A stretch of 40,513 bases of DNA. Source: Rhodospirillaceae bacterium. Its GTDB lineage: Bacteria; Pseudomonadota; Alphaproteobacteria; Rhodospirillales; Rhodospirillaceae. The stretch lies in assembly GCA_019694335.1 (NCBI GenBank), contig JAIBCD010000027.1:1-40513 (forward strand), read 5' to 3'. Made by a program: the position numbers and the translations under genes. Shown piece after piece: positions 3,809-26,338 of this stretch. The stretch's first letter is position 1; each line of letters begins with the position of its first letter. Below the pieces are notes generated by a model. That model was not told the origin of the DNA. It saw only the letters and a program-made list of their open reading frames with translations, and made no database searches.

Positions 3809-4828
3809 ATGCGCGTATTGCAAGTCATGGCCAGCGGCCGCCACGGCGGCGCGGAGTTGTTCTACGAGGATCTGGTGCCGGCGCTGGCGAAGGCTGGGGC
3901 CGAGCAGGTGGGCGTGATCCGCCCGTATCCCGACCGTGCGGCGATCCTTAGGCAGGCCGGCTGCCGCGTCACCATGCTGAAGTTCGGCGGGCCGCTCGAT
4001 CTGGTCACGCGCTTCAAGCTGGCGAAGATCGCCAGGACCGAACAGCCCGACATCGCCATGGGCTGGATGAACCGCGCCTGCAACGACCTTCCCACGGGGC
4101 CGTGGGTGAACGTCGGCCGCCTCGGCGGCTATTACGACCTCAAATACTACCGCCGCTGCACCCAGCTGATCTGCAACACGCCGGACATCTGCGACTATGT
4201 GGTGCGCGCAGGCCGCAAGGCGGACGCCGTGCACTACATCCCCAATTTCTGCCCGGTGCGCGACGAGCCGCCCGTGGACCGTGCGCTGCTTGGCGGCGAG
4301 GCCGCGCCGGTGCTGCTGATCCTCGCGCGCCTGCATCCCGCCAAGGGGATCGATGTCGCCCTGCGGGCGCTGCCGGAGATCAAGGACGCGGTGTTGTGGA
4401 TCGCGGGCGATGGCCCGGATGAAGCCAAGCTCAAACGTCTGACCGCCGACCTCGGCCTCGGCAATCGCGTGCGCTTCCTCGGCTGGCGCGACGACCGTTC
4501 GGCGCTGCTCAAGGCCGCCGATGTCTGCCTGCTGCCGTCGCGCATGGAGCCGTTCGGGAATGTGGTTCTCAATGCCTGGGCCCACGGCGTGCCGCTGGTG
4601 GCCTCCATGAGCCAGGGCCCCGGCAAGCTGGTGCAGGATGGCGACGACGGACTGCTGGTCCCGGTGGACAACGCGGGTGCCCTGGCGGCGCGGGTGAAGG
4701 CGGTGCTTGGCGACAGGGCGCTGGCCAAGCGGCTCACGGCCGGAGGATTGCGGCGCACCGCCGCCGAATTCTCCGAGTCCGCGGTGGTCGAGCGCTATCT
4801 CGCGATTTACCGCGCGTTTCTGGCTTAA
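3809..4828 (+). CDS. GT4-family glycosyltransferase
   Basis: A 339-residue GT-B fold glycosyltransferase of the GT4 type. The N-terminal domain begins MRVLQVMASGRHGGAE, with the glycine-rich acceptor/donor loop. The C-terminal domain carries LLILARLHPAKGIDVALRAL and the donor-binding region SRMEPFGNVVLNAWAHGVP. The usual EX7E motif is modified: E247 is present but the second position is N255. The ATG at 3809 is chosen because it has TAGGAG eight bases upstream and starts the fold directly, although the frame is open further 5' inside the divergent acyltransferase gene. The most likely role is transfer of a sugar to a lipopolysaccharide core or other envelope glycan, inferred from the fold and the lipid A neighbour. 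Confidence 0.85.
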   Translation: MRVLQVMASGRHGGAELFYEDLVPALAKAGAEQVGVIRPYPDRAAILRQAGCRVTMLKFGGPLDLVTRFKLAKIARTEQPDIAMGWMNRACNDLPTGPWVNVGRLGGYYDLKYYRRCTQLICNTPDICDYVVRAGRKADAVHYIPNFCPVRDEPPVDRALLGGEAAPVLLILARLHPAKGIDVALRALPEIKDAVLWIAGDGPDEAKLKRLTADLGLGNRVRFLGWRDDRSALLKAADVCLLPSRMEPFGNVVLNAWAHGVPLVASMSQGPGKLVQDGDDGLLVPVDNAGALAARVKAVLGDRALAKRLTAGGLRRTAAEFSESAVVERYLAIYRAFLA

Positions 4829-4888: not shown

Positions 4889-6685
4889 ATGGGGATGCCC
4901 AAGCAAGCCTCCAAGCGCGTGGCGGACAAGGCCGAGGTCCAAACCGGCGCGGATAAACATGCCGGTCATGGCGTAAAGGATCACCTCGGTCTCCTGGCGG
5001 AGATGACGCGCGAGTTCACCGCCAGTTCCGACTACAAGACCATCGCCCAGTCGGCCTTGGCGCGCATCACCACCTATATGGGCGCCGAGGCCGCGTCCCT
5101 GTTCCTGGTCAGCGACACCGGCGAAGCGCTGGTGTGCTCGGCGTGCTACGGGCCCGTGGACATCACCGGGCTCAATATCGCCGCCAACACCGGCGTGGTC
5201 GGCCGCGCCGTGGCGACCCGCGAAGGCGCCCTGGTGCGCGATGTCGCCGAGCGCGCGGATTTCGGCGCGGCGGTGGACGCCAAGACCGGCTTCACCACCC
5301 GTTCGCTGCTGGTGGCGCCGCTGGCGATCGGCGGCGACTGCCTGGGCGCGATCGAGGTCATCAATCGCATCGGCGGCGACGGGCTGTTCGACGCCGAGGA
5401 CTTGCTGCTGCTCGAAACCCTCGCCGGCGCCGCCGCGCTCGCCATCAGCAATTTCCGCCTCACCCACAAGATCGTCCAGCAGGAACGCAACCAGCACGAG
5501 TTGGAACTCGCGGCCGAGATCCAGCGCGACCTGTTGCCGCAGGCCACCAGCCGGGATTTCCCGATCCACGGCATCAATATTCCGGCGCGGTCGGTGTCGG
5601 GCGATTTCTTCGACATCCTGCCGCTGCCCGACGGGCGCATCTGGTTCAACGTCGCCGACGTGTCCGGCAAGGGCATGAACGCGGCCCTCTTGATGGCCAA
5701 GACCTCGAGCCTGTTCCGCTGCCTCGCCAAAAGCGCCGAGGATCCGGGCCAGCTCCTGAACGCCATCAACAACGAACTGTGCGAAACCAACTCCCACGGC
5801 ATGTTCGTGACCATGGTGGGCGGCCTGTTCCACCCCGGCACCGGCTCCCTGCGCCTTACCAACGCCGGCCACGAGCCGCCCCTGCACTTCGATTTGCGGA
5901 CCGAGCGCTTCATCGCCATTCCCGCCGACGCGCCGCCTCTGGGCATCGCCCAGGATATCGCCGGGCCTGATGGTTTTCCGGTGACCGAGATCTTTCTCGC
6001 TGGCGGCATGCTCTATGTGTTCACCGATGGCCTGACCGAGGCCACCACCTTCGGCGGCGGCATGCTGGGGATCGACGGCGTGCGCGCCCTGATCCGCGAC
6101 CATGCCGAGGAGACCCCGGACCTGCGCCTGAAAAGCATCGCCGGTGCGGTCAAACTGCCCGGTCAGTCCTTGCGCGACGATTTGACCCTTTTGGTGGTCG
6201 AGGACATGGGCCTCGCGCCGGTCGGGGCCAAGCCGCCGATCGACAACAAGCTCTCGGTGGAAGACGGCCAGATCATGCGCATCCGCATTCCGGCCCGCCC
6301 CGACCGGCTGAAGCTGATCCGCGCCGCCACCGAACAGGCCTGCAAATATTGCGACGCGCCGGAGCCCTGGACCTTCGACCTGAAAATGGCCGTGGACGAG
6401 GCCTGCCAGAACATCGTCCGCCACGCCTACGGGAACCGGGGCGAAGGCGACATCATGATCGACTATTCGCGCGAAGGGGACGTCCTGGTGGTCGACATCA
6501 TGGATTTCGCCGACGCGGTCGACCCCGAAACCATCAAATCCCGCAATCTCTCGGAAGTCCGGCCTGGGGGCCTGGGTGTTCATCTGATCAAATCGGTCTG
6601 TGACGACGCCCGGTTTGTGCCGCCGCCGCCGGGCGTCGGGAACTTATTTAAATTGACCAAACGCCTGCCAAACAAGGTAAGTTAA
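4889..6685 (+). CDS. GAF-SpoIIE phosphatase-HATPase regulator (RsbU/RsbW-like fusion)
   Basis: A 598-residue signalling protein with three domains: a GAF sensor (about 35-190); a short coiled linker (QQERNQHELELAAEIQRDLLPQ); a PP2C/SpoIIE serine phosphatase (about 215-430) with metal-binding aspartates D239 and D242 (SGDFFD) and D380 (FTDGLTEA); and a GHKL ATPase/anti-sigma kinase domain (about 450-595) with E504 and N508 of the N-box and the G-box GGLGVHLIKSV. It thus carries both the dephosphorylating and phosphorylating activities used on STAS proteins in partner switching. The ATG at 4889, with GGGACAGG upstream, is preferred over a TTG at 4859. The next gene encodes a STAS protein 27 bases downstream, the obvious substrate. 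Confidence 0.88.
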   Translation: MGMPKQASKRVADKAEVQTGADKHAGHGVKDHLGLLAEMTREFTASSDYKTIAQSALARITTYMGAEAASLFLVSDTGEALVCSACYGPVDITGLNIAANTGVVGRAVATREGALVRDVAERADFGAAVDAKTGFTTRSLLVAPLAIGGDCLGAIEVINRIGGDGLFDAEDLLLLETLAGAAALAISNFRLTHKIVQQERNQHELELAAEIQRDLLPQATSRDFPIHGINIPARSVSGDFFDILPLPDGRIWFNVADVSGKGMNAALLMAKTSSLFRCLAKSAEDPGQLLNAINNELCETNSHGMFVTMVGGLFHPGTGSLRLTNAGHEPPLHFDLRTERFIAIPADAPPLGIAQDIAGPDGFPVTEIFLAGGMLYVFTDGLTEATTFGGGMLGIDGVRALIRDHAEETPDLRLKSIAGAVKLPGQSLRDDLTLLVVEDMGLAPVGAKPPIDNKLSVEDGQIMRIRIPARPDRLKLIRAATEQACKYCDAPEPWTFDLKMAVDEACQNIVRHAYGNRGEGDIMIDYSREGDVLVVDIMDFADAVDPETIKSRNLSEVRPGGLGVHLIKSVCDDARFVPPPPGVGNLFKLTKRLPNKVS

Positions 6686-6712
6686 CCCCTTACGGAGCAT
6701 CAGAGCGAGACG

Positions 6713-7039
6713 ATGAGCTACGAGATTCGCAATGTGAACGGGGCGGCGGTGGTGGCGCTCAACGGCGACGTCGACCTGCAGACCTCGCCGGTGGTCCGCC
6801 AGAAGCTGCTCGAGAGTCTCGAGGGCAACACCAAGGTCGTGGTCGACCTGTCGGCGGTGAACTACATCGATTCCTCGGGCGTCGCCTCGCTGGTCGAAGC
6901 GTTCCAAGTTAGCCGCAAGAAAGGCGCCTCGTTCGCGCTCGCCAGCGTGTCGTCGGCCGCCATGCGGGTGTTGTCGCTCGCGCGCCTCGACAAGGTGTTC
7001 ACCATCCATTCGTCCGTCGAAGCGGCTACTCAAGGCTGA
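6713..7039 (+). CDS. STAS-domain protein (anti-sigma factor antagonist/MlaB-like)
   Basis: A 108-residue single STAS domain. It contains the phosphorylation-site motif YIDSSGVASL (D53-S54-S55-G56). S55 aligns with the serine phosphorylated in SpoIIAA and RsbV. Two roles are possible. As an RsbV-type antagonist it would be the substrate of the upstream phosphatase/kinase fusion. As an MlaB-type protein it would bind and stabilise the MlaF ATPase encoded two genes downstream; in E. coli MlaB is also a lone STAS domain encoded in the mla operon. Its position between the two sets of genes, 27 bases after one and 11 bases before the other, supports both, and the two roles could be combined. It is not a membrane protein. 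Confidence 0.88.
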   Translation: MSYEIRNVNGAAVVALNGDVDLQTSPVVRQKLLESLEGNTKVVVDLSAVNYIDSSGVASLVEAFQVSRKKGASFALASVSSAAMRVLSLARLDKVFTIHSSVEAATQG

Positions 7040-7050
7040 GATGCAGTGCC

Positions 7051-7887
7051 ATGGCCGAGGCTCCGATCCAAGGCGGCGCTAACGGCCTGTCCACAAAAAT
7101 CACCGCGGTCCTGACTCGCCTGGGCGAAAAGGCGGTCGCCGCCGTCGCCGAAATCGGCCTGGGCGCCGTGCTGTTCGGCCAGAGCGTGTTCTGGATTTTC
7201 ATGGGCCGCCGCCAGGCCCAGCCGGTGCGCATCGGCGCAACCTTCGCCCGCTGCATGGAAGTCGGCATCGAGGCCCTGCCGATCGTCACCATGATGTCGA
7301 TCACCATCGGCATCATGCTGGCGATCCAGGGGATCTATGCGCTGCGCGTATTCGGCGCCGAGGACCAGGTCACCATCGGCCTGGGGCTGTCGGTGGTGCG
7401 CGAATTCGGGCCGCTGATCACCGGCATTCTGATTTCCGGCCGCACCGGCTCGTCGCTGGCGGCGCGCATCGGCACCATGCGCATCAGCCAGGAAATCGAC
7501 GCACTCACCGTCATGGGCATCAATCCGGTGCGGTTCATCGTCGCCCCGGCCCTGATCGCCATGTTCGTGATGGTGCCGCTGCTCGCCTTCTGGGCGGATA
7601 TGGTGATGCTCGCCGGCGCCGGCTGGTACGTGACGGTCGATCTCGGCATGACCTTCTCGGCCTATGTGCAGCGCCTGACCGAGACCGTGACCCTGCACGA
7701 CGTCATGCACGGCTTGTCCAAGGCGGGGCTGTTCTCGGTCCTGATCACCCTGGTGGGCGTGATCAACGGCGCCAGCGTGTCCGGCGGCGCGGAGGGCGTG
7801 GGCAAGATGACCACGCGCTCGGTGGTGCTGTCGATCAGCGCCATCATCGTGACCGACATGGTCTTCGCTTACGTCACGACCCGGTGA
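7051..7887 (+). CDS. mlaE: MlaE-type lipid ABC transporter permease
   Basis: A 278-residue permease of the MlaE/TTG2B family, which with MlaF and MlaD moves phospholipids between the inner membrane and the periplasm. Family landmarks visible are VVREFGPLITGILISGRTGSSLAARIGTM, the EIDALTVMGINPVRF coupling-helix region, and a C-terminal hydrophobic segment ending in VFAYVTTR. An N-terminal amphipathic region (FGQSVFWIFMGRR) precedes the membrane segments. It starts 11 bases after the STAS gene stop and ends 4 bases before the ATPase gene, so the genes are co-transcribed. No mlaC-like periplasmic carrier is encoded in this operon. Confidence 0.92.
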   Translation: MAEAPIQGGANGLSTKITAVLTRLGEKAVAAVAEIGLGAVLFGQSVFWIFMGRRQAQPVRIGATFARCMEVGIEALPIVTMMSITIGIMLAIQGIYALRVFGAEDQVTIGLGLSVVREFGPLITGILISGRTGSSLAARIGTMRISQEIDALTVMGINPVRFIVAPALIAMFVMVPLLAFWADMVMLAGAGWYVTVDLGMTFSAYVQRLTETVTLHDVMHGLSKAGLFSVLITLVGVINGASVSGGAEGVGKMTTRSVVLSISAIIVTDMVFAYVTTR

Positions 7888-7891
7888 CGTC

Positions 7892-8731
7892 ATGAGCCAC
7901 GCAGAAGCCGCGCCCTATCAACGGCCCGATCTCACCGGGGCGCCGAATGTCATCGAGATCCACGATCTCGTCACCCATTACGGCACGCGCAAGATCCTGC
8001 ACAACGTCAGCGTCGAGGTGCGGGAAGGCGAGATCATGGTGATCATGGGCGGCTCCGGCTCCGGCAAGAGCACGCTCCTGAATACACTGCTGGGACTCCT
8101 GCGTCCGACATCGGGCGCGGTGCGCATCCTCGGCCAGGATCTGTGGGGGATTTCCGACGTCGAGCGCACGCATCTGCGGCAGAAAATCGGTGTCGCCTTC
8201 CAGGGCGGCGCGCTGTTCAGTTCGCTCAACGTGCTCGAAAACATCCTCCTGCCGCTGCGTGAGCACACCAAACTCGATCTCAACACCATGCGCATCATGG
8301 CCCGCCTCAAGATGCAGGTGGTCAACCTGGCGGGCTTCGAAAACCTGATGCCGGCGGAACTGTCGGGCGGCATGATCAAGCGCGCCGCCTTCGCCCGCGC
8401 CATCGTCATGGACCCGCGCGTCCTGTTCTGCGACGAGCCGTCGGCGGGCCTCGATCCCATCGTCGCGTCGGCCATCGACGACCTGATCCTCTCGCTGCGC
8501 GACGCCATGGGCATGTCGATCGTCGTGGTCACCCACGAACTCGAGAGCGCCTTCCGCATCGCCGACCGGATCTGCGTGCTCGATCGCGGCCATATCCTGA
8601 TGGTGGGCACGGTCGATGAGGTGCGCGCGAGCCAGAACGAGCGCATCCAGAACCTGCTGAATCGCCGTACCGAGGAGGAAAACCTCGATCCCGATGAGTA
8701 TTTAAAGCGTCTGACGGCGGCGGCGAGCTAG
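7892..8731 (+). CDS. mlaF: MlaF-type ABC transporter ATPase
   Basis: A 279-residue ATP-binding subunit of the lipid transporter. It has Walker A G53-GSGSGKST-61, an ABC signature written as LSGGMIKRAAFARA (the methionine after LSGG is typical of MlaF, where most ABC proteins have Q), Walker B VLFCDEPSAGLDP, and the H-loop VVTHELES. The C-terminal tail (RRTEEENLDPDEYLKRLTAAAS) extends past the core ATPase and could be the surface that contacts a STAS partner, as in MlaF-MlaB; this is inference. The gene is 4 bases after the permease gene and 53 bases before the MCE-protein gene. Confidence 0.93.
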   Translation: MSHAEAAPYQRPDLTGAPNVIEIHDLVTHYGTRKILHNVSVEVREGEIMVIMGGSGSGKSTLLNTLLGLLRPTSGAVRILGQDLWGISDVERTHLRQKIGVAFQGGALFSSLNVLENILLPLREHTKLDLNTMRIMARLKMQVVNLAGFENLMPAELSGGMIKRAAFARAIVMDPRVLFCDEPSAGLDPIVASAIDDLILSLRDAMGMSIVVVTHELESAFRIADRICVLDRGHILMVGTVDEVRASQNERIQNLLNRRTEEENLDPDEYLKRLTAAAS

Positions 8732-8784
8732 TGCCGGACCGAGAATCGCTGTAATCAGGAACAGGGAATCGGGCGGACAGGATT

Positions 8785-9747
8785 ATGCAGGATAGCCGCA
8801 TAAATTACGTGGTGGTGGGCGCGTTCGTCGCCGCCATGCTGGTTGCCTTCGTGGTGGTGGCCAGCGTGCTCGCGGGGCGCACCGGCGCCACCGATTCCTA
8901 TTACACCGTCTACAACAACGTCGGCGGTATCAAGTACGGCACCATCGTTTTCTACGAAGGCTTCCAGGTCGGCCATGTCGAGAGCATCGAGCCGATCCAG
9001 AAAGGCCGCCAGCTGACCTTCAGGGTCAACATGGAGATCACGCACGGTTGGCAGATTCCCACCGATAGCGTCGCCCGCGCGCTGATCTCGGGATTGCTGT
9101 CGGCGGTCGCCATCGACATCAAGGGCGGCAAGGCCGAGGCGCTGCTTCCGCCGGGAGCCGAGATGAAGGGCCAAGGGCCCGGCAACCTATTCGCGACGCT
9201 GGCCGACATCGGCGCGGAGTTCGGCGACCTGTCCACCAACTCCATCAAGCCGCTGCTCGAGAACGTCAACGTCCTGGTCAAGCAGCTGTCGGCGTCGACC
9301 GCCGACAATCTGCCGGTCATTCTGGCCAACCTGAACAAGCTCTCGGGGAGCGTGGAGCGCTCGGCCGCCGTGATCGAGAAGGGGTTCTTGAAGCCCGAGA
9401 ACGTCCAGCACATGGATGCCATCGTCGCCAATGTCGATCAGGTGACCGCCAATCTGAATCAACTCTCCGCCGGCCTCGAAGAGACGCGCAAACTGCTCAA
9501 TGAGTCCGTCGCGCGGGTCAACAAGGTCGTGGACAACAACAGCGGCAACGTCGACGAGGCCATGCGCAACCTGCGCTATACGACCGACACCATCGCGCGC
9601 AACGTGGACGATATCGCTCACAATGCCGCCGCCACCGCCCGCAACATGGCCGAGTTCAGCCGTTCGATCCGCGAGAACCCGGGCCTCCTGCTCGGCGGCG
9701 CCGCGCCGGAAGATCCCGTGAAGCCCAAGACCGGAGGCGGCAAATGA
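8785..9747 (+). CDS. mlaD: MCE-domain lipid-binding protein (MlaD-type)
   Basis: A 320-residue inner-membrane-anchored MCE protein. One N-terminal membrane helix (YVVVGAFVAAMLVAFVVVASVLAG) is followed by the MCE beta domain (about 38-115: YYTVYNNVGGIKYGTIVFYEGFQVGHVESI) and a long, mainly helical C-terminal region (about 125-300) rich in heptad-like hydrophobic spacing, such as NLNQLSAGLEETRKLLNES. It is longer than E. coli MlaD (about 183 residues), and the extra helical part resembles the tunnel-forming helices of PqiB/YebT-like or Mce proteins. It probably forms a hexameric ring passing lipid to or from MlaEF. Its stop overlaps the lipoprotein start by ATGA. Confidence 0.9.
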   Translation: MQDSRINYVVVGAFVAAMLVAFVVVASVLAGRTGATDSYYTVYNNVGGIKYGTIVFYEGFQVGHVESIEPIQKGRQLTFRVNMEITHGWQIPTDSVARALISGLLSAVAIDIKGGKAEALLPPGAEMKGQGPGNLFATLADIGAEFGDLSTNSIKPLLENVNVLVKQLSASTADNLPVILANLNKLSGSVERSAAVIEKGFLKPENVQHMDAIVANVDQVTANLNQLSAGLEETRKLLNESVARVNKVVDNNSGNVDEAMRNLRYTTDTIARNVDDIAHNAAATARNMAEFSRSIRENPGLLLGGAAPEDPVKPKTGGGK

Positions 9748-10346
9748 CAATTTCCCGCCGTTGGTTCGTGGGGGGCGCGCTGGCGCTCTCGGCCTGTTCC
9801 TCGGGCGTCGTGCCGCGCGATACGTTTTACCGCCTGGGCACGCCCGCTACGCCGCAGGCCCTCGCGGGCGGACCGATCAAGGGCACGGTGGAAGTGCCGC
9901 CGTTCCGCGCCCAGGGCATCGTCAACGAGCGCGCCATGCTGTATCGGGAGAGCGCGTTCGAGCTGGCGCAGTACAATTATCACACCTGGATCGAACCGGC
10001 CTCGATGATGGTGAGCCGCGTGTTCATCGAGTCCTTACGCGCCGCGCAGGCGTTCACCGCCGTGGCTTCGCCCGAGATGCGCCAGAACCGCGATTACGAG
10101 TTGTCGGGCGATATCCGCGAGTGGGAGCATGTGTTGCCGCAGGCCGGCGGCCCGGCGGTGGCCATCGCCATCGATATCGCTCTGCGCCGTATCGCCGGCA
10201 GCCGGGAAATGCTGCTGAAGAGTTACCGCGTGCATGAGCCGGTGGCCGGCGACGGCATCGACGCGGTGGTGCAATCCTTCACCACCGGGCTCGACAAGAT
10301 CGTCGCCCAGGTGCTGGGCGATCTCGCCGCCCTCCCCAAAAGCTAG
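9744..10346 (+). CDS. ABC-type transport auxiliary lipoprotein (PqiC-like)
   Basis: A 200-residue lipoprotein of the ABC-transport auxiliary family (PqiC/YmbA-like), which assists MCE transporters at the outer membrane. The N-terminus is MTISRRWFVGGALALSACSS, with a lipobox L-S-A-C and lipidated C18. It also contains S-R-R-x-F, close to the twin-arginine signal consensus, so export may be Tat-dependent; this is unusual for the family and unproven. The body shows FYRLGTPATP near the start and the paired beta/alpha pattern of the family. The ATG overlaps the MlaD-type stop (ATGA), which ties it to that transporter. It is the last gene of the run. Confidence 0.85.
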   Translation: MTISRRWFVGGALALSACSSGVVPRDTFYRLGTPATPQALAGGPIKGTVEVPPFRAQGIVNERAMLYRESAFELAQYNYHTWIEPASMMVSRVFIESLRAAQAFTAVASPEMRQNRDYELSGDIREWEHVLPQAGGPAVAIAIDIALRRIAGSREMLLKSYRVHEPVAGDGIDAVVQSFTTGLDKIVAQVLGDLAALPKS

Positions 10347-23986: not shown

Positions 23987-24015
23987 AAGATAGGAGAGGG
24001 GGTGGGGGGTGTCAA
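23987..24015 (-). promoter_or_regulatory. Promoter of the F0 ATP synthase operon
   Basis: On the minus strand, TTGACA (24015-24010), a 17-base spacer, and TATCTT (23992-23987) make a strong housekeeping-type promoter. The predicted leader before atpI is about 140 bases. It contains AAAGCCC and GGGTTTT arms (around 23945-23968) that could form an attenuator-like hairpin running into a short T-tract. The spacer is an uninterrupted run of C and pyrimidines, which is unusual. Confidence 0.65.
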
Positions 24016-24082
24016 GGAGGTTGGGGGGGAGATACAAGCACTTGTTAAATATGATGATTTTTCGTTTTGCGGTGAGCAAATC

Positions 24083-26338
24083 TCACCAGTCATCATGCCA
24101 AATGGTCGCGTCCGTTTTTCCACTAGAGCGATCTCGTACGGCTTTCACAAATGCAGCCACCGCCTCCCTTTGCTCTGCGGTAAAGCCACTTTCGTCCATC
24201 CGCTTCAGTCGCTCCACTACCACGGGCAGGTCTAGATGGTTCGCGATGTGGTCCAGTTTGAAGAAAGCACGCCTCTTCGTGATGCCACCCGTGGAAACAA
24301 AACTAATATCCACAAAGCCGGTCAACATTTTCAGAAGGTATTGGTCGTCGAGGAAACACCCAACCAACCACTGAATTGGTGCTGTTGAGCTATCAAGCTC
24401 CCTCCAACTGAACCAAATTCGTGCGACGTGGGGAGTGTGGCCAAGCGACTGATCGGCTGCGCTGGCAACGATCTTCTGTAGCCAAAGGGCACGGCCAGTT
24501 TCCAAAGCTCCGTCCGATAAAAGGAGATCGTTCTTGTTTGCCGCTGATTTTCGAGAAATCTGCTCATCTCGCAGAATTTGCCCCGGTGTGGAGAGACCAT
24601 GCGATTTGCCGAACGCCGCTATAAAGGCTGCCGACCTCTTCTCGGGGTCGGGTTCCTTGACCAGAAATTGGATACAGTTACTCCATACTTGGCGATAGTC
24701 GTTGACACCAAATCCAGGCTGCGGATTGGAGTCCACTGCTTCGGAAAGATCGAACATCGTGCTCAGAAATTCTTCCGCAAATGCAAAATCAATGGCTGGA
24801 ACTTGAATTAACGTGCGACGCAAAAGAGGAATGATTAATCCTCCATTGGCCATTTTCATTACTTCGCGACGGAAAGCGCCGCCCTCAGGAAGAAGCTTCA
24901 GAAGATCGGAGAAGGCTTGCTCCGTAATTTGATGATCGGGCACCGCATAGATAAAATATCTGTCGAAGAATTCTTCCGTACAAACGCGAAACGCCCGAGC
25001 CCAATCAGACGAAAAGGTGGGACTTAGCACGTTTGGCATGTATCGCGCCGCCGATGGGAAAAGGTGGGCCACGAGAGCGGATACAGGCCCTAGGCGCTCA
25101 GCACTGGAGTATTCGAGAAGAGTTCGAACTTCCTCCGCTCTTTCATCGTGAGTGTCATTGGAGGGAGAGGAAAGGAGCAGCTGTTTTGCGTCGGGAAGTT
25201 TCTTAAATAGAGCGGGCTCAAAGACGGCAAGCGTTTGTAGCGCGATTAGATCGACGGCATTTACTTCAAGAGTGGTGCGTCCTCGTAGGGCCGGAAGCAT
25301 CCCGGACAGTACGGCGAGAAGGCGATAGACGTCGCGCACATTGCGAACAATTGGGTTTACCCCTTCGTACAATATGAGCGCCCATCGTCCTTCATCAAAC
25401 CCATGCCTAGCGTCGGCAAACTGTCCAAGAATATCATTGAGGCCGTCGATGAGCACTTTCTCCACCCGGCCTTCTTCTACTCGCGGAAGAACAAGGGGGA
25501 TTTGAACTACTTTTTGAAGATACTTTCGCCCGTTCGCGGACGACAGACTCAGGACTTGTTCGACAATTTTCTGGTCGAACAGAAGTAAAAAGATCAGTCG
25601 AGGGAAATTGAGCGAGCTTTTGACCAAGCTAATAATCGATCGAATTTCTTCGTCAGTGGACCGATCGATATCATCAACGATCACTACAATGTTTTTGGGG
25701 AGAGCTTTCAGTTGCTCCGTCAGAGACTCTCGCAGTTCTTCTAGGGTTTTGTCGCTGCCCTCGCAAAAACTGAGTAGTGCGCCTAGGCCGGAACCCAACG
25801 CGGATAGGAGAATTGTCGCCAGCGTCAGGGCGCTGCCGAACCACGTTGCGGCAACACGCATTTCCGGCGGAACTAACCCGCTGACCGTCAATCCGACGGA
25901 CGCAAATAGTCCGATCCACAAGATTAGTTTAGCTTTTGCGGTGGCCAGCGTGTCGGCCGTGCCTTGCAGAAGGCGGGCGTACTTGCCCCAACTCAGAAGA
26001 AACGCAAATTTCTGCTTAAATGGGGAGGACCGCAGTACGGCAAGCCGTATCTCCCGAAGGAAAGCTGCCGTAGCCTCTTTCGGATCCCTCCAATGCCAAG
26101 GGCTAAACTGTATTAGAGTTGGCTGCTGATCATCTGATCGTTTTCGCAACTCCTCGACCATCATGTTGATGATCGAGGTTTTTCCCTCTCCCCAAGCCCC
26201 ATCTATGGAGATGACGACGCCGCGATCAATTGGCGCAGTGTCGATGATTTTTAGTAGGTGAAGAGCGAATTTTCTTCGGCCCAACTTATCTTGGGCCGAA
26301 GATGTTATGGCGGCATCGCCTACCAGGAATTCATACAA
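24083..26338 (-). CDS. KAP-family P-loop NTPase, probably acquired
   Basis: A 751-residue KAP NTPase. Walker A is G47-AWGEG-K53-T (DGAWGEGKTSII) and Walker B is NIVVIVDDIDRS (about 216-227). Two membrane segments (about 138-158 and 166-190) are inserted between them, the hallmark of the family, placing the ATPase at the inner face of the membrane. The C-terminal 450 residues have no motif I recognise. Some KAP proteins, such as PifA of the F plasmid, exclude phage, so defence is one possible role. Base composition is clearly lower in GC, with more A/T-ending codons than its neighbours. It interrupts an atp/smc block. The start is a TTG at 26338 with AGGA upstream. Confidence 0.85.
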   Translation of the reverse strand: MYEFLVGDAAITSSAQDKLGRRKFALHLLKIIDTAPIDRGVVISIDGAWGEGKTSIINMMVEELRKRSDDQQPTLIQFSPWHWRDPKEATAAFLREIRLAVLRSSPFKQKFAFLLSWGKYARLLQGTADTLATAKAKLILWIGLFASVGLTVSGLVPPEMRVAATWFGSALTLATILLSALGSGLGALLSFCEGSDKTLEELRESLTEQLKALPKNIVVIVDDIDRSTDEEIRSIISLVKSSLNFPRLIFLLLFDQKIVEQVLSLSSANGRKYLQKVVQIPLVLPRVEEGRVEKVLIDGLNDILGQFADARHGFDEGRWALILYEGVNPIVRNVRDVYRLLAVLSGMLPALRGRTTLEVNAVDLIALQTLAVFEPALFKKLPDAKQLLLSSPSNDTHDERAEEVRTLLEYSSAERLGPVSALVAHLFPSAARYMPNVLSPTFSSDWARAFRVCTEEFFDRYFIYAVPDHQITEQAFSDLLKLLPEGGAFRREVMKMANGGLIIPLLRRTLIQVPAIDFAFAEEFLSTMFDLSEAVDSNPQPGFGVNDYRQVWSNCIQFLVKEPDPEKRSAAFIAAFGKSHGLSTPGQILRDEQISRKSAANKNDLLLSDGALETGRALWLQKIVASAADQSLGHTPHVARIWFSWRELDSSTAPIQWLVGCFLDDQYLLKMLTGFVDISFVSTGGITKRRAFFKLDHIANHLDLPVVVERLKRMDESGFTAEQREAVAAFVKAVRDRSSGKTDATIWHDDW

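Follow-up and report, generated by a model that had tools for sequence, protein, structure and literature searches.

We analyzed a 40,513-nucleotide stretch of DNA from a Rhodospirillaceae bacterium (contig JAIBCD010000027.1; this whole stretch is called the window) and found a locus in which a GAF-SpoIIE-HATPase fusion, i.e., a serine phosphatase joined to a serine kinase, and a free STAS protein are encoded directly ahead of a lipid transporter of the ATP-binding cassette (ABC) class. We consider it probable that this Mpc/Mla-type transporter has a free phosphorylatable STAS subunit under a dedicated partner switch, such that a switch of the RsbW/SpoIIE type acts on an ABC transporter. A phospho-switch had been proposed in an earlier note on this DNA (the original prediction), and that interpretation was partly supported. 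The evidence comprises the gene order, the domains, the catalytic and acceptor residues, linkage throughout the lineage, a tail on MlaF, and searches that found no other free STAS protein or SigB/F/G-type sigma factor.

Six open reading frames (ORFs) on the + strand at window positions 4889-10346 encode the GAF-SpoIIE-HATPase fusion, STAS, MlaE, MlaF, MlaD and a lipoprotein; the ORF list and Pfam confirmed the original prediction in this respect. The gaps are 27, 11, 4 and 53 bases, followed by a 4-base overlap, and judging from this spacing the six genes would form an operon. MlaE, MlaF and an MCE-domain protein together are the gene set of an MCE-type lipid ABC transporter. The transporter had been predicted as MlaEFD; these three components are present, but the published Mpc (Mla-Pqi chimera) architecture fits better than that of E. 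coli Mla because mlaC is absent among the six genes (MlaC was not searched for elsewhere in the genome), MlaD is long, and the lipoprotein is PqiC-like. These are traits of the Mpc subtype. The PqiC NCBIfam score of the lipoprotein was 22 bits against a cut-off of 200. A further Mpc trait, STAS fused to the permease, is not seen at this locus, where STAS is a separate ORF.

Linkage of the switch genes to the transporter was assessed in three samples. MlaE matched in 61 of 61 genomes of the taxonomic order (own genome included), and 39 of them had a second MlaE of the kind found in the window (window type), with HATPase and STAS directly upstream in 39 of 39. SpoIIE was beside 38 of these loci (a contig end cuts that of G035) and absent beside the one in G038, where HATPase-STAS-MlaEFD-lipoprotein (L071, G038:C18) follows cytochrome-oxidase-like genes. 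In these relatives the window type was the lower-scoring second MlaE, checked by locus; G023 was excluded on account of a STAS-MlaE fusion, and MlaE fragments in G002, G043 and G055 were left unclassified. In the class and phylum samples, where at most six candidates were scored per genome, the window type was defined by more than 300 bits with profile A3. Among 385 genomes of the class, 14 (own included) had window-type MlaE, separated from the next hits by a gap (303 against 229 bits), and SpoIIE, HATPase and STAS preceded MlaE in 11 of the 13 further genomes, all but G272 and G372. Among 398 genomes of the phylum, six had it, of which four were new and two of these four linked. Outside the class, the full gene order was found in G574, and G562 has HATPase-STAS-Mla beginning at a contig start. 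In total, HATPase and STAS lay directly upstream of window-type MlaE in 52 of 56 sampled genomes (39 of the 61 relatives, 13 further of the class sample and 4 further of the phylum sample). Chance adjacency was rejected on this count and because 38 other genomes of the 61 share the gene order (one of them without SpoIIE), as does L195 outside the class. Judged by these comparisons, the locus is old and conserved. The concern raised in the original prediction, that the phosphatase might be missing from most relatives, was not borne out.

We also collected loci with the kinase as seed. Among the best 80 of 347, MlaE was present in 75; L114, L117 and L129 end at contig edges, and L113 (with a truncated phosphatase-kinase gene) and L133 lack MlaE. 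These named loci overlap with the relative set, as 21 of the 40 relative loci share identical STAS DNA with a named locus. The full order occurs in the isolates Magnetovibrio blakemorei MV-1 (L161), Terasakiella pusilla (L170) and Terasakiella brassicae (L148), which are culturable and not known to be pathogenic; a few purified proteins from them would therefore suffice to test for a switch. At L183 and L215 (G272), STAS-SpoIIE-HATPase is convergent with MlaE-MlaF-MlaD-lipoprotein, and the STAS frame is extended by a long C-terminal stretch. As a separate observation, several public records titled Candidatus Marinimicrobia (L091, L093, L096, L097, L099, L105 and L154) carry a kinase 72-90% identical to that of the window; most other kinase matches are titled Rhodospirillaceae or Rhodospirillales, and the Marinimicrobia titles look wrong.

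The STAS protein retains a conserved acceptor site. Alignment to SpoIIAA, RsbV and E. coli MlaB places the phosphorylatable position at S54, the first serine of D53-S54-S55-G56, so that S55, named in the original prediction, was rejected as the acceptor. Ser58 of SpoIIAA and Ser56 of RsbV are presumably also the first serines of their motifs. T52 of E. coli MlaB aligns with S54. Both S54 and S55 were invariant in all 33 aligned rows (33 of 41 STAS proteins from the window and 40 loci; alignment A1). The DSSG motif was present in 39 of 40 relative loci; L038, read from its twin L094, has Glu before both serines. Of 91 STAS hits in the named and class loci, 90 had both serines, and the remaining one is a split-gene fragment (L109) that stops before the site. 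The protein passed the TIGR00377 ant_ant_sig model (80.9 bits; cut-off 53.45) and did not reach the cut-off of NCBIfam mlaB_1 (29.1 bits; cut-off 90). STAS is directly 5' of MlaE; in 39 relative loci no more than 69 bases separate the two genes. Two genomes of one family have a tandem pair of STAS genes, both with DSSG, between HATPase and MlaE (L174:1285-2003 and L175:3831-4546); these may possibly be two competing substrates of one kinase.

The catalytic residues of both predicted enzymes are conserved. In 21 aligned sequences (alignment A2, picked as full-length single frames), D239, D257, D380, D430 and D431 of the phosphatase-kinase protein were invariant, and those in the SpoIIE domain we take to be metal-binding. 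This domain passed PF07228 with 138 bits against a cut-off of 25. E504, N508, D539 and the GGLG box (560-563) of the HATPase domain were invariant in the same rows; the HATPase_c_2 fold is thus represented by what are presumably the N-box Glu/Asn, the G1 Asp and the Gly-rich box. The kinase did not reach the equivalog cut-offs of RsbW (51 bits; cut-off 145) or SpoIIAB (25 bits; cut-off 135). It was the top HATPase_c_2 match of its own genome with 75.8 bits, the next being 29.3. In some lineages (e.g., L060, L064 and L066-L069) phosphatase and kinase are separate adjacent frames. Another SpoIIE-like phosphatase of the own genome was noted at G000:C29:14818-15552, within a 721-aa frame.

The original prediction had named a separate, dedicated mlaB elsewhere as evidence that would count against it. 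Searches of the own genome (97% complete) with STAS_2 and PF01740 gave none: the only STAS_2 match was the window protein, and the only other PF01740 match was a SulP-like transporter (named by eye). A second mlaB was thus rejected, and no free STAS elsewhere in the genome was found. The canonical mlaEF pair of this genome (L073, G000:C51) lies between alr- and radA-like genes (named by eye); neither mlaD nor a window-like STAS adjoins it. The remaining MlaD-family matches of the genome are two neighbors on C143.

Two features were added to the original prediction, namely the MlaF tail and the contrast with a sister clade in which STAS is fused. Window-type MlaF ends in a conserved tail, with variants of the window sequence elsewhere. 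Searched for within the last 45 residues, its core pattern [YF][LMI]xxL occurred in all 36 relatives and, of the 77 named or class loci whose ends are complete, in 74; these two sets overlap. None of 14 canonical and none of seven fused-type MlaF proteins had it. The likeness to the E. coli MlaF tail is one of motif (aromatic and Leu residues); the two tails were not superposed by MAFFT.

A tree was built from 52 MlaE sequences. Its window-type (23 rows), fused-type (19) and canonical (9) members each fell on one side of a well-supported branch, with supports of 100/98 and 99/96 for the window and fused clades. The window-type rows include L183, L192 and L194, which do not have the usual gene order. 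Window and fused types were joined against canonical and E. coli MlaE; the root was set for drawing only, and E. coli MlaE and L183 are long branches. L192 and L194, without an adjacent switch, are inside a 22-row branch (95/84) that excludes the fully linked L195, and their switch-less state therefore looks derived. The fused type was equated with Mpc by architecture, the tree containing no Brucella sequence. The order of STAS followed by permease is common to the window locus and the fused sister clade. At the position equivalent to S54, 17 of 23 fused STAS domains have Thr, 5 have Ser and 1 has Val (class and phylum samples, read by eye; L072 and L075, which also look fused, are outside the 23).

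In stretches of 2.9-7 kb around these 23 fused-type permeases, neither SpoIIE nor HATPase was detected, nor any strong match to a free STAS. This would suit an explanation in which STAS serves constitutively as a structural subunit in the manner of MlaB and the phosphatase-kinase has its target elsewhere or shares the transcript for some other reason, as would the reported need for MlaB in a stable E. coli MlaFE complex (PMC5016091 and PMC7367683, in the accessible text). We regard that explanation as distinctly improbable. The acceptor position is a conserved Ser in the window type, whereas Thr dominates the fused relatives; the kinase had no other free STAS to act on in the own genome, as far as our searches found; and kinase and phosphatase are linked to the transporter inside and outside the class. 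Remnants also suggest joint loss with the transporter. L046 (G018) has a truncated phosphatase-kinase gene without the HATPase part, with STAS and mla absent at the locus, and L077 (G011) is only a short remnant; each of these genomes has a single MlaE, which fits loss of kinase-phosphatase and transporter as a unit.

A phospho-switch acting on MlaF through STAS is the most economical account because STAS occupies the seat of MlaB, has a conserved acceptor serine and is the only free STAS found, and because kinase and phosphatase travel with the transporter. In E. coli, T52 is central in the MlaF-MlaB interface and T52E weakens MlaF binding, according to the accessible parts of PMC7367683. We infer a STAS-MlaF contact, phosphorylation of STAS, the sign of the control and a signal as follows. 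Unphosphorylated STAS would bind MlaF, helped by the C-terminal tail of MlaF, and, like MlaB in E. coli, would permit assembly or ATP hydrolysis. S54, which aligns with T52 of the interface, would be the residue phosphorylated by the RsbW-like HATPase domain; phosphorylated STAS would leave MlaF, and transport would drop. The SpoIIE domain, governed by the GAF domain, would then strip the phosphate and transport would be restored. The HATPase domain may compete with MlaF for unphosphorylated STAS. The proposed sign, in which phosphate releases MlaF, was chosen because of the T52E effect. We see as evenly balanced the wider proposition that a partner switch moved from sigma factors to an ABC transporter, with kinase and MlaF competing for the same face of STAS, GAF-SpoIIE-controlled serine phosphorylation toggling lipid transport, and the STAS-permease fusion as the unswitched form.

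HATPase and STAS modeled as one chain gave a mean predicted local distance difference test (pLDDT) score of 86.8 and a predicted template modeling (pTM) score of 0.76, and the nearest solved folds were RsbV/RsbW and SpoIIAB/SpoIIAA chains, with Rv1364c RsbU-RsbW (3ke6) also listed. STAS and MlaF modeled as one 672-residue chain, with a disordered stretch of ~290 residues, gave a pTM of 0.55, and 297 of 672 residues had a pLDDT below 50. By a yardstick that is our own estimate and no tool output (STAS-MlaF ~0.44 for unplaced and ~0.55 for placed domains; HATPase-STAS ~0.5 for unplaced domains), both pTM values appear to be above the expectation for unplaced domains, which lends weak support to the predicted pairings.

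Several points weigh against our proposal. The STAS profile was closer to TM1442, RsbV and SpoIIAA (84.7, 57.4 and 52.0 bits) than to MlaB (23.5 bits). In addition, phosphatase, kinase and STAS persist at L054 (G029), where mla is missing, and at L063 (G054), where mla is broken (an 82-aa MlaE fragment), which counts against loss as a unit. Both points, together with the nearest model folds, would be expected from a conventional partner switch, in which STAS and HATPase control a sigma factor or other regulator that sets transcription of the mla operon or an envelope-stress regulon, without any contact between STAS and MlaF. We consider such a switch unlikely. No SigB/F/G sigma factor (TIGR02980) was over the cut-off in the 61 genomes of the taxonomic order (best 136.5 bits against 234.35); one of 14 control genomes had a match over it. 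Weaker sigma-70 matches to the same model were present in 60 of the 61 and were taken for RpoD and RpoH. A sigma partner of the usual type, an alternative raised in the original prediction, thus did not turn up in this search. The short STAS-MlaE gap leaves no room for a regulator gene. The confinement of the MlaF tail to the window type, among those tested, and the fusion of STAS to MlaE in the sister system also argue against a conventional switch.

The other adverse points concern the exceptions, the models and the acceptor site. In G519 the transporter has the tail but no switch beside it, and HATPase-STAS and SpoIIE-STAS pairs are on other contigs; G481 has a lone MlaE; the G372 locus is cut by a contig edge, and its sole STAS hit is on another contig, where a 7-kb stretch contained neither SpoIIE nor HATPase; and G008 has the beginning of the kinase gene at a contig end and no second MlaE was found, so that this genome is readable neither way. 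MlaF of L181 and L182 lacks the tail, and that of L183 misses the pattern. Serine is also not exclusive to kinase-linked STAS: fused STAS proteins of L203, L205, L209, L210 and L211 carry it, and a strict rule of Ser at the site only with a kinase near was rejected on these 5 of 23. The two models were assessed by pLDDT and pTM scores, not by an aligned-error map, coordinates or a negative control fold. Mutual information with average product correction between STAS and MlaF, HATPase or MlaE gave similar top scores for all three pairs and no interface pattern (81 clustered operons of 107; effective number 47).

Finally, the T52A change in E. coli MlaB abolishes ATPase activity while assembly is kept, in the accessible text of PMC5016091. 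The site may therefore do more than carry a phosphate, and an effect on activity, not on binding, is also possible. Since the hydroxyl matters beyond binding, this result could fit a switch of the opposite sense, in which phosphorylated STAS is the active form; the fused relatives, which tether STAS to MlaE, could fit docking on MlaE instead of MlaF. We consider either variant very unlikely, as T52E weakens MlaF binding in E. coli, phosphorylation breaks partner binding in the known cases discussed in PMC7367683, and the conserved tail is on MlaF. Overall, the interpretation that phosphorylation of STAS controls MlaF is plausible and strengthened, not proven; the influence on the direction of lipid flow that the original prediction envisaged gained no support.

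The proposed switch resembles known systems in part. It shares a SpoIIE-type phosphatase, a GHKL serine kinase and a STAS protein with Bacillus RsbU-RsbW-RsbV and SpoIIE-SpoIIAB-SpoIIAA. The STAS proteins of these Bacillus switches carry the phosphorylatable Ser in DS(S/T)G, and their target is a sigma factor; in contrast, no such sigma factor was over the cut-off here, and the neighbor is an ABC transporter. Rv1364c (3ke6) also has phosphatase and kinase in one polypeptide, along with a sensor and an RsbV-like domain, whereas in the window the STAS protein has a gene of its own, linked to a transporter. SypA/SypE and Bordetella BtrU/V/W are STAS phospho-switches with an output other than the classical sigma-B circuit; we know of no ABC transporter target for them. 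E. coli MlaFEDB likewise has a free STAS protein (MlaB), a C-terminal MlaF extension and T52 aligned with S54; however, its mlaB is the last of five mla genes, Thr is at the site, MlaC is present, MlaD is short, and no kinase or phosphatase is named in the accessible accounts. Brucella abortus Mpc has an operon that encodes an MlaE-like permease, an MlaF-like ATPase, a long MCE protein and a PqiC-like lipoprotein and no MlaC, with the STAS-permease order (PMC12436622, in the parts available). It differs in that its STAS is fused to the permease and those parts of the report name no phosphatase or kinase, whereas the window locus has a free STAS beside SpoIIE-HATPase and the extra MlaF tail.

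The original prediction was made with no description of such phospho-control of lipid transport known to its author. Phosphorylation of E. coli MlaB had already been hypothesized in 2016 (PMC5016091) and 2020 (PMC7367683), but the accessible parts of these accounts name no kinase or phosphatase and leave regulation open. Neither an MlaB kinase or phosphatase nor an operon combining SpoIIE, STAS and Mla was reported in the top-listed papers of the open-licence PMC literature, a scope outside which most subscription papers and all bioRxiv preprints lie. The terms ABC, Mla and lipid are absent from the main text of a STAS review (PMC8256260). If our proposal is correct, this would be, within the literature searched, the first lipid ABC transporter whose STAS subunit has a kinase-phosphatase pair dedicated to it, and inter-membrane lipid traffic would be under post-translational control by a switch known from transcription. 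The locus unites candidate enzymes, acceptor protein and transporter in one putative operon.

Table 1. Features of the locus (window positions).
Feature	Position	Strand	Basis
GAF-SpoIIE phosphatase-HATPase (RsbW/SpoIIAB-like kinase) fusion, 598 aa	4889..6685	+	ORF and Pfam
GAF domain, aa 47-186, presumed sensor	5027..5446	+	Pfam GAF/GAF_2
SpoIIE (PPM) serine phosphatase domain, aa 247-438	5627..6202	+	Pfam, 138 bits
HATPase_c_2 serine kinase domain, aa 467-586	6287..6646	+	Pfam, 72 bits
STAS protein, 108 aa; resembles MlaB in position and SpoIIAA/RsbV in sequence	6713..7039	+	Pfam STAS, 75 bits
Ser54 codon, expected phosphorylation site (DSSG)	6872..6874	+	Conservation in alignment
MlaE-type permease	7051..7887	+	Pfam MlaE, 221 bits; clade membership in tree
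MlaF-type ABC ATPase	7892..8731	+	Pfam ABC_tran, 110 bits
MlaF C-terminal extension DPDEYLKRLT, aa 266-275	8687..8716	+	Core pattern [YF][LMI]xxL
MlaD/MCE protein with long C-terminal part, 320 aa	8785..9747	+	Pfam MlaD, 42 bits
PqiC-like lipoprotein; lipobox-like LSAC spotted by eye	9744..10346	+	Pfam ABC_trans_aux, 61 bits

A glycosyltransferase-like gene (3809-4828, named by eye) ends 60 bases upstream of the phosphatase-kinase gene. In tblastn comparisons it was upstream in most loci of the genus and in two other genera of the family, and it was not upstream in loci from other families; the first gene conserved throughout all compared loci was the phosphatase-kinase. Downstream of the lipoprotein gene are threonine synthase (Pfam) and then an M16 peptidase-like gene (named by eye). 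A defense function was rejected, as PADLOC gave no match. Elsewhere in the window, a KAP-family NTPase gene at 24083-26338 coincides with a stretch of low GC content (0.518 at 24001-26000, with flanks of 0.63 and 0.65) and was possibly acquired.

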